NCBI RefSeq assembly: GCF_037572775.1
Contig: NZ_JBBHKA010000001.1
Span: 2,604,001-2,668,000 of the forward strand
Direction: 5' to 3'
Source of the DNA: Ramlibacter sp. PS4R-6
Lineage (GTDB): Bacteria; Pseudomonadota; Gammaproteobacteria; Burkholderiales; Burkholderiaceae_C
Length of the DNA stretch: 64,000 nucleotides
Positions 51,206 through 59,218 of the stretch are shown in pieces; position 1 is the stretch's first letter; every line of letters begins with the position of its first letter. A program made the translations under genes and the position numbers. Under the pieces are notes generated by a model that worked only from the letters and a program-made list of their open reading frames with translations, was not told where the DNA came from and searched no databases.

Positions 51206-51253
51206 GACCAGCAAGGGCCGGCCACGACCGGCGCCATTCAGGGAGCAAGAGTG

Positions 51254-51903
51254 ATGGATACACGCGTTGCCGGCCTGGCACGGCCGCCGGCGTACATCCC
51301 GCCGTCCGTCGAGCGGGAACCCTCGTCGCAGATCCACGATGTGGTGCTGCACCACCTGCGGACGCCCGCCGAAATCGAGGGCATCATCGACCTGCGCGAC
51401 GAGATCGACCTGTCGGTGCACACCGCTGCCGGACGGCAGCAGTTCGAGAGGCTCGAAAAAAAAGAGACGAGTGCGGGTTCGTGTTCGGATTCGAACTCGG
51501 CGGGGAGTGGATCGGCACGATCCGCATCGTCCCGCTGGGCTACCAATTGACGCTGACGGAGACACTGCTGCCCCACGCGGGTGCCGACGCACCCCCCACC
51601 GGCCCGGGCGACTGGGAAGTCGGGCGGCTGGTGCTCGCCCCCGCCTATCGCAGCGACGTCGAGGCGCTGCGCCACTGCCTGCGCATCGCCCTCGAGTACG
51701 CCTGCGGCGCGACGCGCGTCGACCACCTGTTCGCCACCTGCACACACGTGCTCGGCCGCCTGTACCGGCGCTTCGGCTTCGCGGTGTTCGCGCGCGACGT
51801 GGTGTTGCCCGGCACGGACAAGTCGTACACGCTCATCCGCGGGGGCTCGAACGCCGTCGCCATGGGCCTTTCCTCGCGCACCTCGCCCGCGGTGACGCAA
51901 TGA
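51254..51903 (+). CDS. FeeM/GNAT-like N-acyltransferase, frame interrupted by an A8 run
   Basis: The first 70 residues ([14 protein letters not shown]... to FERLEKK) are in one frame, and the remaining 146 ([16 protein letters not shown]... to the TGA at 51903) are in the -1 frame. They join at the A8 run 51456-51463 to give one uninterrupted 216-residue protein. The joined sequence has [50 protein letters not shown] and [18 protein letters not shown], which resemble N-acyl amino acid synthase (FeeM) or autoinducer-synthase GNAT proteins. These attach a fatty acyl group from acyl carrier protein. A strong ribosome site (AGGGAG) is present. It is followed by two kinases after ten bases. An authentic frameshift, programmed slippage or a sequencing error are all possible. 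Confidence 0.6.
51457..51463 (+). other. Slippery heptamer A AAA AAA, possible -1 frameshift site
   Basis: In the frame of the first part the codons read GAA AAA AAA GAG, so A-AAA-AAA is in the exact X-XXY-YYZ register for -1 slippage. A GAGAGG Shine-Dalgarno-like sequence lies five bases upstream (51446-51451). A GTTCG/CGAAC hairpin with a four-base loop starts 20 bases downstream (51483-51496). Slippage of polymerase on A8 would give the same product. Confidence 0.5.
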
Positions 51904-51913
51904 GGCCCGCGCC

Positions 51914-54412
51914 ATGAAGATGCTGCGCCGCCTGTTCGCCCGCTACGAGGCCTACCACGAGCACGGGCCGCTGCTCCTTCGCTACATCAGCGTGCTGGGC
52001 CTGATCATGCTGCCGGTGATGTATCTGCTGCGCCCGACGCGCAGCCCCGGCGCCTACGACGACCTGGCGCTGCGCGCGGTGGACTGCGCACTGCTCCTGG
52101 GCCTGATGGCGCGCAAGCACTGGCCCGAGAGGATCAAGGGGGCCTACCTCGCTTACTCCTATCTCGTGATCACGGCGTGCCTGCCGTTCACGTTCATCTT
52201 CACGTCGCTGAAGAACGGCGGCGGCGCCGGCGCGGTCGCCAACACCTTCATGGCCGTGTTCCTGGTGCTGCTGCTGGCCGACTGGCGCAACATGGTCGTC
52301 ATGCTGGTCGCGGGCGCGGGCGCCGCGGTGCTCGGCTACTTCGCCACGACGCCGGGCGCGCGCATCCCAGCCGACTACATCGCGCGGCTGCCGCTCCTCA
52401 TCGGCACGATCATCGGCGCGAGCCTGTTCAAGTACGCGCTGGAGCAGGCCACAGCCGAGCGCGTGCGGCATGCCTATGCCTCGCTCGCGGGGTCGATCGC
52501 GCACGAGATGCGCAACCCCCTCGGGCGCATCCGCCACAACCTCGAGTGCATGCAGGAGGCGCTGCCGCAGCCCACCACGCTCAACGACCCGCAGCTGCTG
52601 GACGCCGGCCGCACCGATGCGCTGTACCGGCTGGTCGCCGAAAGCGAAGTGGCGGTCAAGCGCGGCTTGCAGGTCATCGCGATGACGCTGGACGAAGTCG
52701 GCGCCAAGCCCATCGACCGCGCGGGCTTCGCGCTGCTGTCGGCCGCCGACACCACGCGCAAGGCGCTGCAGGAGTACGCCTTCCAGGGCGATGACGAGGC
52801 CGCGCGCGTGGACGTGCGGGTCACTGCCGACTTCGTCTTCCGCGGCGACGAGACCGCCTACGTGTTCGTGATCTTCAACCTGATCAAGAACGCGCTGTAC
52901 TACCTGCCGGCCTACCCACACGCCCGGGTGACCATCACGGTGGGCGACCAGCAGGTGAAGGTGCACGACGACGGTCCTGGCATCCCCTACGACGTGCAGG
53001 AGCGCCTCTTCCAGCCCTTCGCATCGGCCGGCAAGACGGGCGGCACCGGGCTGGGCCTGGCGTACTGCCGCCGCGTCATGGAAGCCTTCGGCGGCACCAT
53101 CCGCTGCGAGTCGGTGCCGCAGAAGTACACCGAGTTTTCGCTGGCCTTCCCGCAGGTGCCGCCTGCCGAGGTGCAGGCGCTGCAGCAGCGCGCGATGGAG
53201 AAGGCGCGGGCCGCTTTCGCCGGCAAGCGCCTGCTGCTGGTGGACGACGACGCGGCGCAGCGCACGACCTCGCGCCACAAATTGCAGGCGCTGGGCGTGG
53301 AGATCGACCAGGCCACCGATGGCCAGCGCGCGCTCGAGGCCCTGGCCCGCACCCCCTACGACATCGTGCTGCTGGACCTCAACATGCCGCTGCTGGACGG
53401 CTATGCCGTGGCGCGCAGCGTGCGGCAGGGACAGGTGCCGCTAAACCGCGACGTGGCCATCGTCGCCCACACGAGCGAGCCCGCGCACATCGCGGCGCTG
53501 AAGGCGCGGCGCGCGGGGATGGATGCCTTCGTCGGCAAGCCCAGCACGCAGGCGCAACTGATCGAGGCCCTGAGCGAGGCGCTGCAGGCGCGCATCGCGA
53601 CGCAGGCCAGCGTCGAGCGGCGGCTCACGGGCCGGCGCATCCTCGTGGCCGACGACGCCGCGTACAACCGCAAGACCGTGGCCGCGTACCTGCGCCATGT
53701 CGGCGTGACGGTGGTGCAGGCCTCGCACGGCGAGGCGGTGCTGCAGGCCCTGCGCGCGGGCGGCGGCTGGGACGCGATCGTCCTGGACATCAACATGCCC
53801 GGCATGGACGGCCTGCAGACGGCCGCCGCCATCCGCCAGCTCGACCCGCCGCTGCGCGACGTGCCCATCATCGCCCTCACTGCGCACTCGGACGACGAGA
53901 CGCTGCGGGCCGCGCAGGCCACGGGCATGAACGGCTTCATCACCAAGCCGGTCGACGCGGCGGTGCTGTACAAGACCCTGGGCGAACTCGTTTCGGACAC
54001 GCCGGCGCCGCAGCCGCTCTTGCGCCGCACGGAGGGCTCCGCCGCCGTGCCCGACGCCGACGCGCTGCTCAACCCGTCGCGGCTGGAGAGCTACGCGCGC
54101 ATCGGCATGCTGGGCGAGCTGCTGGGCGAGTACGTCCCCGAGCTCACCGCGCTGGCCGGCAAGCTGCAGCGCCATGCGCAGCTGCAGGACATGCCGGCTT
54201 GCGCCGACGTGCTGCATTCGCTGCTGGGCATGAGCGGCGAGGCCGGCGCGCCCGCGCTGTACCAGGCGGTGCGCCGCGTGTACGTGCCGATGGTGGAGGC
54301 GAAGGCCTGGCCGGTGCAGGACGACTGGGCCGGCCGCATCGCGGCGCTGGCCGCCGAGACGGTGCAGGCGCTGAACGCCTACGGGGCGGCGCAAGGCGCC
54401 CGCCACGAGTGA
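51914..54412 (+). CDS. CqsS/PhcS-like membrane hybrid histidine kinase with two REC and an Hpt domain
   Basis: This is an 832-residue sensor. Residues 20-175 form about five to six membrane helices with no large periplasmic domain, as in CqsS, LqsS and PhcS quorum-sensing receptors. HisKA His197 lies in SIAHEMRNPLGRI, a spelling typical of that subgroup. The ATPase domain has N326 and DDGPGIP (352-358) and GLGLAY. Two receiver domains carry D488 and D625. A C-terminal Hpt has H768 in LHSLLGMSGEAGA. This gives a complete intramolecular phosphorelay (H-D-D-H). It follows the FeeM-like gene by ten bases, so it is the likely receptor for the acyl product. Confidence 0.8.
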   Translation: MKMLRRLFARYEAYHEHGPLLLRYISVLGLIMLPVMYLLRPTRSPGAYDDLALRAVDCALLLGLMARKHWPERIKGAYLAYSYLVITACLPFTFIFTSLKNGGGAGAVANTFMAVFLVLLLADWRNMVVMLVAGAGAAVLGYFATTPGARIPADYIARLPLLIGTIIGASLFKYALEQATAERVRHAYASLAGSIAHEMRNPLGRIRHNLECMQEALPQPTTLNDPQLLDAGRTDALYRLVAESEVAVKRGLQVIAMTLDEVGAKPIDRAGFALLSAADTTRKALQEYAFQGDDEAARVDVRVTADFVFRGDETAYVFVIFNLIKNALYYLPAYPHARVTITVGDQQVKVHDDGPGIPYDVQERLFQPFASAGKTGGTGLGLAYCRRVMEAFGGTIRCESVPQKYTEFSLAFPQVPPAEVQALQQRAMEKARAAFAGKRLLLVDDDAAQRTTSRHKLQALGVEIDQATDGQRALEALARTPYDIVLLDLNMPLLDGYAVARSVRQGQVPLNRDVAIVAHTSEPAHIAALKARRAGMDAFVGKPSTQAQLIEALSEALQARIATQASVERRLTGRRILVADDAAYNRKTVAAYLRHVGVTVVQASHGEAVLQALRAGGGWDAIVLDINMPGMDGLQTAAAIRQLDPPLRDVPIIALTAHSDDETLRAAQATGMNGFITKPVDAAVLYKTLGELVSDTPAPQPLLRRTEGSAAVPDADALLNPSRLESYARIGMLGELLGEYVPELTALAGKLQRHAQLQDMPACADVLHSLLGMSGEAGAPALYQAVRRVYVPMVEAKAWPVQDDWAGRIAALAAETVQALNAYGAAQGARHE

Positions 54413-54416
54413 TACT

Positions 54417-55562
54417 GTGAGCATGTTCCCCCGCATCGGGTCCGAAGCGGTCCTGTTCGTCGACGACGAGGCCATGTCGCGCAAATGGTTCTCGCGCGCC
54501 TTCTCCGACGAGTTCAACGTGGTCACCGCCGCCGGCGCCGCCGAGGCGCTGCAGGTCCTGAGCGAACGCGGCCACGAGTTCGCCGTGCTCGTCACCGACT
54601 ACCGCATGCCCGAGCGCGACGGCATGAAACTGCTGCGGGCCGTGCAGCGCGACTACCGGCACGTGATCCGGCTGCTGGCCACCGCCTACGCCGAGAAGGA
54701 CGTCGCCATCGCCGCGGTGAACCAGGGCAAGGTGCTGCGCATCCTCGAAAAGCCCCTGGACGAGGAGCAGACGCGCGGCGCGCTGCGCGAAGCGGCGGCG
54801 ATGTACCGCACCCAGGCGCTGGAGCGCGCGATGAACGAGAACCGCGTCGCCGCGCTGCGCGAGACGCTGGGCTTCCTCGCGCATGAACTCAACACGCCGC
54901 TGGCCACCGTGCGCGGCTGCGTGAGCTCGGTGGCCTCGCGCTACAAGCCCGCCGACCCGGCGCGGCCCGGCGTCGCCGAATTCACGGAACACCACCCCGG
55001 CGAGTTGCTGGCGGCGCTGGAGCGCGCCGAGCGCCGGGCGCTGTATTGCCAGTCGCTGGTGTCCACCTTCGTGCAGTCCGCGCGCGACGCCTACCCGGGC
55101 TCGGAGCCGCAGAGCGTCACGGCGTCGTCGCTCGTCTCCGCGCTGCTGGACGAGTACCCGTTCGAGGACGAGGAGCGCACCTGGGTCGGCAGCCGCATCG
55201 CGCAGGATTTCAGCCTGCCCGGCCGGCGCGACCTGCTTTACCTCGTGCTGTGCACGCTGGCGAAGAACGCGCTCATCGCGCTGCGCGGCCAGCCCGCGCC
55301 GAGCCTGCGCATCGAGGCCGGCGTGGAAGGCACGGGCAACCGGCAGCCGTGGCTGCGCTTCGTCGACAACGGCCCGGGCATCCCGCCCGAGGTGCTGGCC
55401 AAGCTCACGCGCGAGCCCGTGACCACGCGCGCCCAGTCGGGCGGCAACGGCATGGGGCTGATGTTCTGCCAGCGCGTGATGCAGTCGATCGGCGGCGGCA
55501 TCGAGATCGAGTCGGCGGCGGGCGCGGGCACCACCGTCACGCTGCGCTTCAAGCCGTCCTAG
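54417..55562 (+). CDS. Response regulator with C-terminal histidine kinase (PhcR/PhcQ-like)
   Basis: The 381-residue cytosolic protein starts at GTG 54417 (ATG 54423 alternative). A receiver domain (phospho-acceptor D61 in VTDYRMPERDG) comes first, then a HisKA-type helix with H156 in FLAHELNTPLATVRG. An ATPase domain follows with N284 in LAKNALIAL, DNGPGIPPE and GGNGMGLMFCQ. This REC-HK order is reversed compared with ordinary kinases and is like PhcR of Ralstonia. It follows the hybrid kinase by four bases. It has no DNA-binding output domain. The last 14 bp overlap the convergent desaturase gene. Confidence 0.82.
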   Translation: MSMFPRIGSEAVLFVDDEAMSRKWFSRAFSDEFNVVTAAGAAEALQVLSERGHEFAVLVTDYRMPERDGMKLLRAVQRDYRHVIRLLATAYAEKDVAIAAVNQGKVLRILEKPLDEEQTRGALREAAAMYRTQALERAMNENRVAALRETLGFLAHELNTPLATVRGCVSSVASRYKPADPARPGVAEFTEHHPGELLAALERAERRALYCQSLVSTFVQSARDAYPGSEPQSVTASSLVSALLDEYPFEDEERTWVGSRIAQDFSLPGRRDLLYLVLCTLAKNALIALRGQPAPSLRIEAGVEGTGNRQPWLRFVDNGPGIPPEVLAKLTREPVTTRAQSGGNGMGLMFCQRVMQSIGGGIEIESAAGAGTTVTLRFKPS

Positions 55563-57777: not shown

Positions 57778-58455
57778 TCACGCTTGCGACAGCACTGATT
57801 GCAGGCCGGCTTCGTCGACGATCTCGACGCGGCCGAATTCGGCCGAGATGTAGTGCTTCCGCTCGAACTCCTTGAGCACCGTGTTCACCGTCTGCCGCGA
57901 CAGGCCGGCGAGGATGCCCAGCTCCTCCTGCGTGAGGCTCATGCGGCGCGAGCCGCGCCACAGGTGCGGGCCCAGGTACATCGCGACGCGCTGCGCCGGC
58001 GAGCGCAGGCGCGCGGTCTCGATGATGGCCAGCGCCTGCCCCAGGCGCATGTTCAGGTGCTCGATGAGCGCGTTGCAGAAGTCGATGCTGCTCGCGCGCA
58101 GCTGCTCGAACTCGGTGCGCGGCAGGCAAAGCAGCTCGGTGTCGCGCAGGGCGACCACGTCGTAGCGGCGCGGCTCGTCCTTCAGCACCGAGCCTTCGCC
58201 GAACCACTCGCCGGCGGGGATGCCCAGGAAGGCCTGCCGCCGGCCTTCGGGCGACTCGGTCTGCAGCTTCACCAAGCCGTAGAGCACCGCGTACCAGCCG
58301 CCCACCGGCTCGCCGGCGCGCAGCAGCACGTCGCCCTTGTGCGCCTGCACGGTCGTGACGGATTTCGGCAGGCGCTCGCGCCAGGGCTCGGGCAGCCGTT
58401 GGAACCACGGCTGCATCTGCAGGAACCGGGTGGCCGGCGGGGGCAGCGTTTCCAC
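57778..58455 (-). CDS. Crp/Fnr-family regulator (copy 1)
   Basis: The 225-residue protein has a cNMP-binding-fold domain (about 25-135) with GGWYAVLYGLVKL and GEWFGEGSVLKDEPRRYDVVALRDTELLCL, and a C-terminal winged helix with RMSLTQEELGILAGLSRQTVNTVLKEFER. No N-terminal cysteine cluster of the FNR kind is present. Its recognition helix (GLSRQTVNTVL) is identical to that in copy 2. It is ten bases after copy 2, so both are one transcript. Candidate targets are the PHA genes that diverge from it, but no site was proven. Confidence 0.85.
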   Translation of the reverse strand: METLPPPATRFLQMQPWFQRLPEPWRERLPKSVTTVQAHKGDVLLRAGEPVGGWYAVLYGLVKLQTESPEGRRQAFLGIPAGEWFGEGSVLKDEPRRYDVVALRDTELLCLPRTEFEQLRASSIDFCNALIEHLNMRLGQALAIIETARLRSPAQRVAMYLGPHLWRGSRRMSLTQEELGILAGLSRQTVNTVLKEFERKHYISAEFGRVEIVDEAGLQSVLSQA

Positions 58456-58465
58456 GGGGCGCGCT

Positions 58466-59218
58466 TCAGCCGCGCGGCGCTTCGCGCAGGTGGTTCGCGT
58501 TGAAGGCGATGGCCATCAGCCCCTTTTCGTCCTTGATCTCGATGCGGCCGAAGTCCAGCGACACGAGGCCCTGCCGCCCGAACTCGTTGAGCACCGTGTT
58601 CACCGTCTGGCGCGACAGGCCGGAGAGGATGCCCAGCTCCTCCTGCGACAGGCTCATGCGTCGCGAGCCGTGCCACAGCGTGGGGCCCAGGTACATCGCC
58701 ACGCGCTGGTCGGGCGCGCGCAGGCGCATGGTCTCGATGATCACCATGACCTGGCCCAGGCGCATGTTCAGGTGGCGGCTGATCGACTGGTTGAACAGGA
58801 TGCTGGTGGCGTACAGCTCCTCGAAGAGCGGCCGCGGCAGGCACAGCAGCTCGCTGTCGCGCAGCGCGATCACGTCGTAGCGGCGCGGCTCGTTCTTCAT
58901 CACCGAGCCTTCGCCGAACCATTCGCCGCCGGGGATGCCCAGGTAGCCCTGGCGGCGGCCCTGCGACAGCTGGCTCTGCAGCTTGACCAGCCCGGTCAGC
59001 ACGGCGTACCAGCCCTGCACCTCCTCGTTGGCCTTCAGGATCACCTCGCCCTTGTTGCCCTGCAGGGTGTAGACGCTGTCGACGATGCGCTGGCGCAGGC
59101 CTTCGTCGAGGCCGGCCATCCAGGGCTGCGCCAGGATGAACTGCATCCCGGGACGCGAGGCGTCGCCGATGAACATCGACGCACCCGGAAAAAGGTTGTG
59201 CGACAGGGGGATCGCCAT
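58466..59218 (-). CDS. Crp/Fnr-family regulator (copy 2)
   Basis: The 250-residue protein is the tandem paralogue of the downstream gene, aligned along the whole length: GWYAVLTGLVKLQSQ, YLGIPGGEWFGEGSVMKNEPRRYDVIALRDSELLCLPR and ILSGLSRQTVNTVLNEF. An extra 25-residue N-terminus distinguishes it. It lacks the cAMP-binding arginine-serine pair of Crp and FNR cysteines, so its signal is unknown. A ribosome site AGGAGA is about ten bases before ATG 59218. It diverges from a LivK-type gene across 138 bp with a CCCGAC/GTCGGG palindrome between them. Confidence 0.85.
   Translation of the reverse strand: MAIPLSHNLFPGASMFIGDASRPGMQFILAQPWMAGLDEGLRQRIVDSVYTLQGNKGEVILKANEEVQGWYAVLTGLVKLQSQLSQGRRQGYLGIPGGEWFGEGSVMKNEPRRYDVIALRDSELLCLPRPLFEELYATSILFNQSISRHLNMRLGQVMVIIETMRLRAPDQRVAMYLGPTLWHGSRRMSLSQEELGILSGLSRQTVNTVLNEFGRQGLVSLDFGRIEIKDEKGLMAIAFNANHLREAPRG

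Follow-up and report, generated by a model that had tools for sequence, protein, structure and literature searches.

The stretch of DNA that we analyzed (the window, 64,000 nucleotides from Ramlibacter sp. PS4R-6) contains three adjacent units at 51251-55562: a putative synthase and two histidine kinases. The open reading frames agree with an earlier note on this DNA as to the order of these units, their shared + direction, and the gaps of 10 and 4 bp between them. The earlier note also took the acyltransferase to be one open gene. Instead, it is split: the N-terminal part (N-part) is in the zero frame, and the homologous C-terminal part (C-part) continues in the -1 frame as far as 51903. The features, including a run of eight A's (A8), are:

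51254..51550, + strand: N-part of the synthase, zero-frame ORF (ATG at 51254, GTG at 51251 also possible; stop at 51548-51550; the homologous N-part of relatives is in frame 0)
51455..51467, + strand: slippery block GAAAAAAAAGAGA (A8 run at 51456-51463; invariant at 44/44 distinct A8 sites)
51463..51903, + strand: catalytic part of the FeeM/LuxI-type acyltransferase, -1 frame, from AGA (Arg) to the stop TGA at 51901-51903
51914..54412, + strand: CqsS-type membrane hybrid histidine kinase, 832 amino acids (N-terminal membrane domain, HisKA, HATPase, two receivers, weak Hpt match)
54417..55562, + strand: receiver-histidine kinase (REC-kinase), 381 amino acids (downstream in 22/24 A8 loci with at least 4.6 kb of downstream sequence)

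The zero-frame ORF (51251-51550) encodes 99 amino acids. The frame switches at GAAAAAAAAGAGAC; outside its A8 (51456-51463), neither strand of the window has a run of eight or more A's. At this site, the zero frame reads GAA AAA AAA GAG and the -1 frame reads ...AAA AAA AGA GAY. Past the switch, the zero frame of the window ORF encodes unrelated residues, and across 45 A8-type genes, the zero-frame stop lies 6-87 codons past the site. Beyond the three units, a fatty acid desaturase gene (PF00487; 55549-56556, - strand) is convergent with the REC-kinase gene and overlaps its end by 14 bp. Two CRP/FNR-type regulator genes lie in tandem at 57778-58455 and 58466-59218 (- strand).

To survey the genus, we used a profile built from 38 C-parts of A8 genes to search 60 genomes; this search is independent of the A run. 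There were matches in 43 of the 60 genomes, and no profile match at E = 1e-8 in the other 17. The 52 match rows represent 42 subfamily genes, 9 distant paralogs, and a second piece of the gene from genome G409. Exactly A8, with the N-part in frame 0 and the C-part in frame -1, is found in 39 of the 42 subfamily genes. (One of these 39 rows, on contig 40 of G393, was read via locus L096, whose coordinates agree.) Of the remainder, the G097 gene has A9 and then GGAC and still requires a -1 shift, the G422 gene is in frame and lacks the A run, and the G409 gene, which has A8 but two bases fewer, is in frame and broken a second time further on. Further breaks in the A8 gene are seen in R. terrae (G452; L052/L158), which is one of the 39, and in G409 (L159); because G452 is only 63% complete, assembly errors are likely for these further breaks.

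Because most of the relatives that we found have the same break, it reflects neither chance nor sequencing error. Sequencing error is ruled out because many species, assembled separately, have the identical break. We also considered that A8 might be a mutable tract in a phase-variable gene, or a scar in a decaying pseudogene, given the mutability of homopolymers and the two in-frame relatives that lack the run. However, we found no relative that is simply one A away and in frame, and the -1 protein is conserved across deep branches. Together with the exact A8 requiring a -1 shift in 39 of 42 genus genes, and the kinase gene that follows all 45 A8 genes in a species-level comparison, this makes phase variation or decay hardly credible.

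Outside the genus, the gene is present in at least 4 of 200 genomes from the family (best 19 candidates per genome scored), with A8 in G164, G134, and G200 and in frame without A8 in G105. It is also in at least 2 of 144 genomes from the genus of P. oxyphila (best 27 candidates scored), both with A8. In an order-wide profile search of 399 genomes (E = 1e-6), the sole match among the best 9 candidates scored per genome was in the window's own genome. With so few candidates scored per genome, these order, family, and P. oxyphila genus counts are lower bounds.

A scan of an 84,980-species collection for the A8 motif, which required A8 and AGA and is blind to relatives without A8, gave 69 stretches. 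Thirty-two of these are homologs, as judged by a GT[IVLM]R motif read in the -1 frame; the other 37 are not. The homologs are from Ramlibacter, Caenimonas, unclassified relatives, four Paraburkholderia/Burkholderia records, and one Burkholderiaceae MAG, so other Comamonadaceae besides Ramlibacter have the A8 gene. Named isolates that contain it include Ramlibacter albus GTP1 and Caenimonas koreensis DSM 17982. Among 33 loci from an early tblastn search, 24 have A8 and 9 lack any run of six or more A's; only L012 of those 9 matches the profile, so the remaining 8 look spurious. In a plasmid collection, the sole match to the window's C-part was a Novosphingobium AHL synthase (33% over 65%, E = 5e-4), and the C-part from P. 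oxyphila had no match at E = 1e-10. Judging from the genomes, the split gene for the putative synthase and the adjoining gene for a quorum-sensing-type receptor are kept in dozens of species of the Ramlibacter group of soil bacteria.

To look for constraint at the nucleotide level, we compared 47 distinct sites (44 A8, one A9, and two in frame), from which matches that were partial or weak, such as G409, R. terrae, and UYCP14C, had been removed. The 13-nt block is identical at all 44 distinct A8 sites, even at silent positions, and neighboring silent positions mostly vary; some of these sites were collected by the A8 motif scan, and for them the run itself does not count as independent evidence. 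Elsewhere in the 45 A8-type genes, lysine is encoded by AAA 29 times and by AAG 105 times (of 134), glutamate by GAA 212 times and by GAG 314 times (of 526), and arginine by AGA in just 15 of 705 cases. The arginine codon after A8 (within 51455-51467 of the window) is AGA in the A8 genes, though AGG is commoner elsewhere in them; AGA after the run was a condition of the motif scan and not of the genus census. We selected 393 kb of genus DNA surrounding these genes; it has 16 copies of the motif and 8 other runs of at least eight A's, of which the G097 and G409 genes must account for 2 or more.

We also inferred a tree from 57 C-parts with the first three residues removed, leaving out the three rows (G409, R. 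terrae, and UYCP14C) that cover fewer than about 110 model positions. Nine distant in-frame paralogs are apart (support 100/99) from a 48-row clade of 45 A8 genes, one A9 gene, and two in-frame genes, and the in-frame rows are nested beside A8 sisters. The tree needs three changes; if rooted on the paralogs, these are one gain and two losses. The gene has the conserved slippery site and the two conserved frames that are expected of a programmed -1 frameshift gene. Recoding of the putative synthase gene by a -1 shift at A8 is thus well supported by comparative sequence analysis.

Another way to explain two conserved frames is that the N- and C-parts are separate proteins that assemble, with the C-part arising from internal initiation. 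Upstream of the site, 13 of 45 genes do have a start codon of some kind in the -1 frame, and an ATG, GTG, or TTG is found within seven codons after the site in 29 of 45. But in 32 of the 45, the -1 frame lacks a start codon upstream of the site. In addition, the first two residues of the C-part, Arg1 and Asp2, precede every downstream start that we saw and are invariant in all 38 aligned sequences. Also, in-frame homologs occur, and A8 would be superfluous for separate initiation. We consider a split enzyme to be very improbable.

How might the shift take place? Because GAA precedes the in-frame AAA AAA, both lysyl-tRNAs can re-pair at -1. A_AAA_AAA is described as a known ribosomal -1 site in passages of PMC4066793 and PMC3711429, and the latter gives, from assays of magnesium chelatase cassettes, 10% with seven A's and 40% with nine A's. 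Alternatively, RNA polymerase could add one A at A8 in some mRNAs, and the mixed transcripts would yield short and full-length proteins. This transcriptional slippage would fit with the lack of a conserved stimulator among the 45 A8 genes: just 4 of 45 have SD-like upstream 4-mers, and downstream folding has z below -2 in 4 of 45 (including the window, whose fold is fairly stable at z = -2.4), as compared to 1 in a control stretch. (A passage of PMC4066793 names a proven frameshift case without an established stimulator.) It would also fit with the A9 relative (G097), which still requires a shift. According to passages of Baranov 2005 (PMC1088944), eight A's are inferred to be used in Deinococcus IS elements, but the selection threshold for transcriptional slippage is commonly nine A/T, which A8 does not reach, and the same eight A's contain the established ribosomal site. 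We rate transcriptional slippage as plausible, if a little short of an even chance, and two lysyl-tRNAs slipping on A_AAA_AAA as somewhat more likely than an A added by RNA polymerase. The two mechanisms give an identical protein.

The product of this gene has the family that the earlier note proposed. The C-part from the window matches FeeM (PF21926) at 32.3 bits (cut-off 27), and 36 of 38 alignment members match PF21926 at E up to 1; a longer stretch of the window that begins before the shift has no FeeM match at E = 0.1. So the synthase slot is indeed held by a FeeM-family gene in place of PhcB or CqsA. The structural model of the C-part (pLDDT 92.0, pTM 0.85) has a fold like that of solved FeeM (2g0b) and of AHL synthases. 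The leading Foldseek matches are BjaI, RpaI, LasI, and TofI, along with FeeM 2g0b, and general GNATs are close behind. By this comparison, the predicted structure of the C-part is nearest to AHL synthases. Counting against this, when the enzyme is matched by sequence to a solved AHL synthase, the score falls short of significance (E = 0.12). At E up to 1, the window protein matches only FeeM and Acetyltransf_1, and not PF00765 (Autoind_synth, LuxI), which 9 of 38 alignment members match weakly. We considered a general GNAT or N-terminal acetyltransferase and rejected it, given the FeeM score above the Pfam cut-off and the AHL synthases at the head of the Foldseek list, though many GNATs score well too. 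An N-acyl amino acid may be the product, by analogy with the name of the family.

In five genomes (L147, L148, L165, L166, and G134 = L167/L172), a distant FeeM-type paralog that is in frame lies some 13-16 kb away from the A8 gene. The distant paralog adjoins its own kinase in all 4 of the neighborhoods that we read; one paralog scored 23.2 bits, which is under the FeeM cut-off of 27. At L160 (G410), there are two tandem pairs of an in-frame FeeM-type gene and a kinase.

The 832-residue kinase has the AHEMRNP H-box that the earlier note pointed out. Its HATPase domain and two receivers are above the Pfam cut-offs, and its HisKA and Hpt matches are below; similarly, in the 381-residue protein, REC and HATPase are above the cut-off and HisKA is below. 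By eye, the N-terminus of the larger kinase has six membrane helices. The best NCBIfam match of its core is LuxN, far below the cut-off for that family. With the first 211 residues as the query, we found matching kinases on seven plasmid-collection records. The match from Vibrio campbellii (tblastn; 26.5% over 87% of the query, E = 7e-8) adjoins CqsA (696.7 bits, cut-off 428). Among 160 genomes from the order, four more such kinases turned up (27-33%, E = 9e-15 to 4e-23), each near a CqsA (564-603 bits). The N-terminus is therefore homologous to that of CqsS, as proposed earlier, and the pairing of its homologs with true CqsA confirms the receptor class.

The window's genome has a canonical CqsA elsewhere (G000:C1:1322117-1323286, L191; 557.6 bits), about 1 kb from kinase L003, a paralog of the window's kinase (29%). 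Given this CqsA and paralogous kinase, quorum sensing in this Ramlibacter need not depend on the FeeM locus. At L180 (Paraburkholderia caribensis plasmid 2), a gene for a CqsS-like kinase lies directly 3' of a 3-oxoacyl-ACP synthase III-like gene, which perhaps represents yet another putative class of synthase with a CqsS-type receptor.

The gene order, which the earlier note had suggested as a check on the locus, is conserved. A kinase with a CqsS-type N-terminal domain follows all 45 distinct A8 genes (for 2 of the 45, there is under 1.2 kb of downstream sequence, with partial kinase matches). Of the 24 A8 loci with 4.6 kb or more of downstream sequence, two lack the REC-kinase, those of P. 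oxyphila and REEB369. In 34 of 45 cases, the -1 stop lies within -17 to +24 nt of a downstream start, with a 4-nt overlap in 13; these starts were chosen mechanically, and 3 of the 45 genes had no start that we could find. Because the -1 stop is so often on or near the next start, translation of the full-length synthase is probably coupled to that of the next gene, which is usually the receptor kinase.

A gene of the Haem_oxygenas_2 type (PF14518) is present at the FeeM-kinase loci L016, L018, L019, L049, L081, L084, L085, L086, L093, L116, L149, and L150; the family was checked in L019 and L149 only. In some loci it sits between the synthase and the kinase, and there is none at the window's locus. 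The encoded enzyme may modify the acyl product.

Taken together, we think that the locus quite probably encodes a synthase-receptor signaling system whose FeeM/LuxI-type synthase is made whole only by a -1 slip at A8, that is, by programmed frameshifting. The two in-frame relatives count against this reading, as they imply that the slip is not required everywhere, and so do the 17 of 60 genus genomes with no profile match and the lack of a conserved stimulator. If ribosomes or polymerases do slip in vivo, the slip would give the full-length acyltransferase; without it, a short product that ends 6-87 codons past the site would lack the catalytic core. The synthase would make an acylated small molecule, and the CqsS-like kinase would sense that molecule and pass phosphate via its receivers to the REC-kinase. 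We infer that the neighboring kinase reads this signal because of the family, the synteny, and the receptor class. Given coupling, the rate of the slip would throttle the synthase's output and set the ratio of synthase to receptor. More tentatively, it is possible, if somewhat doubtful, that recoding sets the signal output and, by coupling, that ratio; the threshold would then depend on conditions of translation or transcription.

The recoding could be real and yet the enzyme could serve in membrane-lipid or fatty-acid metabolism, with the kinase sensing something else. Acyl-CoA ligase, ABC transporter, or haem-oxygenase-like genes are near several copies, and the desaturase gene adjoins the window's locus. 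But the constant partner is a kinase with a CqsS-homologous membrane domain, and the distant in-frame FeeM-type paralogs adjoin such kinases too. We consider this metabolic role to be unlikely.

If it is true that a conserved shift acts in a presumed autoinducer synthase beside a CqsS-type receptor, this would be a new control point in quorum sensing. The locus also suggests that CqsS-type receptors are paired with more than one class of synthase. And automatic annotation may label such split genes as pseudogenes.

In the open-access literature in PMC, we found no description of this system in titles or abstract openings, among the matches listed; subscription papers are outside this collection. 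A passage of PMC5009743 ties +1 frameshifting in FseA of M. loti to quorum sensing, and a passage of PMC2627896 mentions an earlier suggestion that frameshifting rescues luxN of A. salmonicida. In PMC10470506, frameshifting appears in the reference list only. According to a passage of PMC9731981, R. albus has a homoserine lactone cluster at 110-131 kb of a contig, and the A8 gene of R. albus is near 298 kb of contig2. As the positions differ and the passage does not name the contig, we do not equate the two.

It is worth comparing the locus to known systems. CqsA/CqsS and LqsA/LqsS (from Vibrio and, according to abstracts, from Legionella and Janthinobacterium) resemble it in having linked genes for a synthase and a kinase with a homologous N-terminal membrane domain. 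The window's locus differs in its FeeM/LuxI-type synthase, its REC-kinase partner, and the -1 shift in the synthase gene; CqsA is not beside the kinase. LuxM/LuxN and AinS/AinR likewise combine a signal synthase that transfers acyl groups with a membrane hybrid kinase, but the LuxM/AinS family differs from the FeeM-type synthase, and we know of no frameshift in those systems. The likeness to PhcB/PhcS/PhcR of Ralstonia is in gene order (synthase, kinase, REC-kinase), as the earlier note put it, and the synthase slot holds the FeeM-family gene instead of the PhcB methyltransferase. The FeeM N-acyl amino acid synthase and the LuxI AHL synthases are similar to the window's synthase by the FeeM Pfam match and by structural matches, but the window's synthase is split by A8 and linked to a CqsS-type kinase. 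The best-known cases of bacterial frameshifting are dnaX, prfB, and transposases. With dnaX, IS transposases, and magnesium chelatase genes, the gene shares an A-rich slippery site and a conserved two-frame layout; unlike in those genes, the shift is in a presumed signal synthase and there is no conserved stimulator. To judge from the open-access papers listed, what is new here is the joining of a known type of enzyme (FeeM/LuxI) to a known type of receptor (CqsS), with a conserved -1 shift in the gene for the putative synthase.
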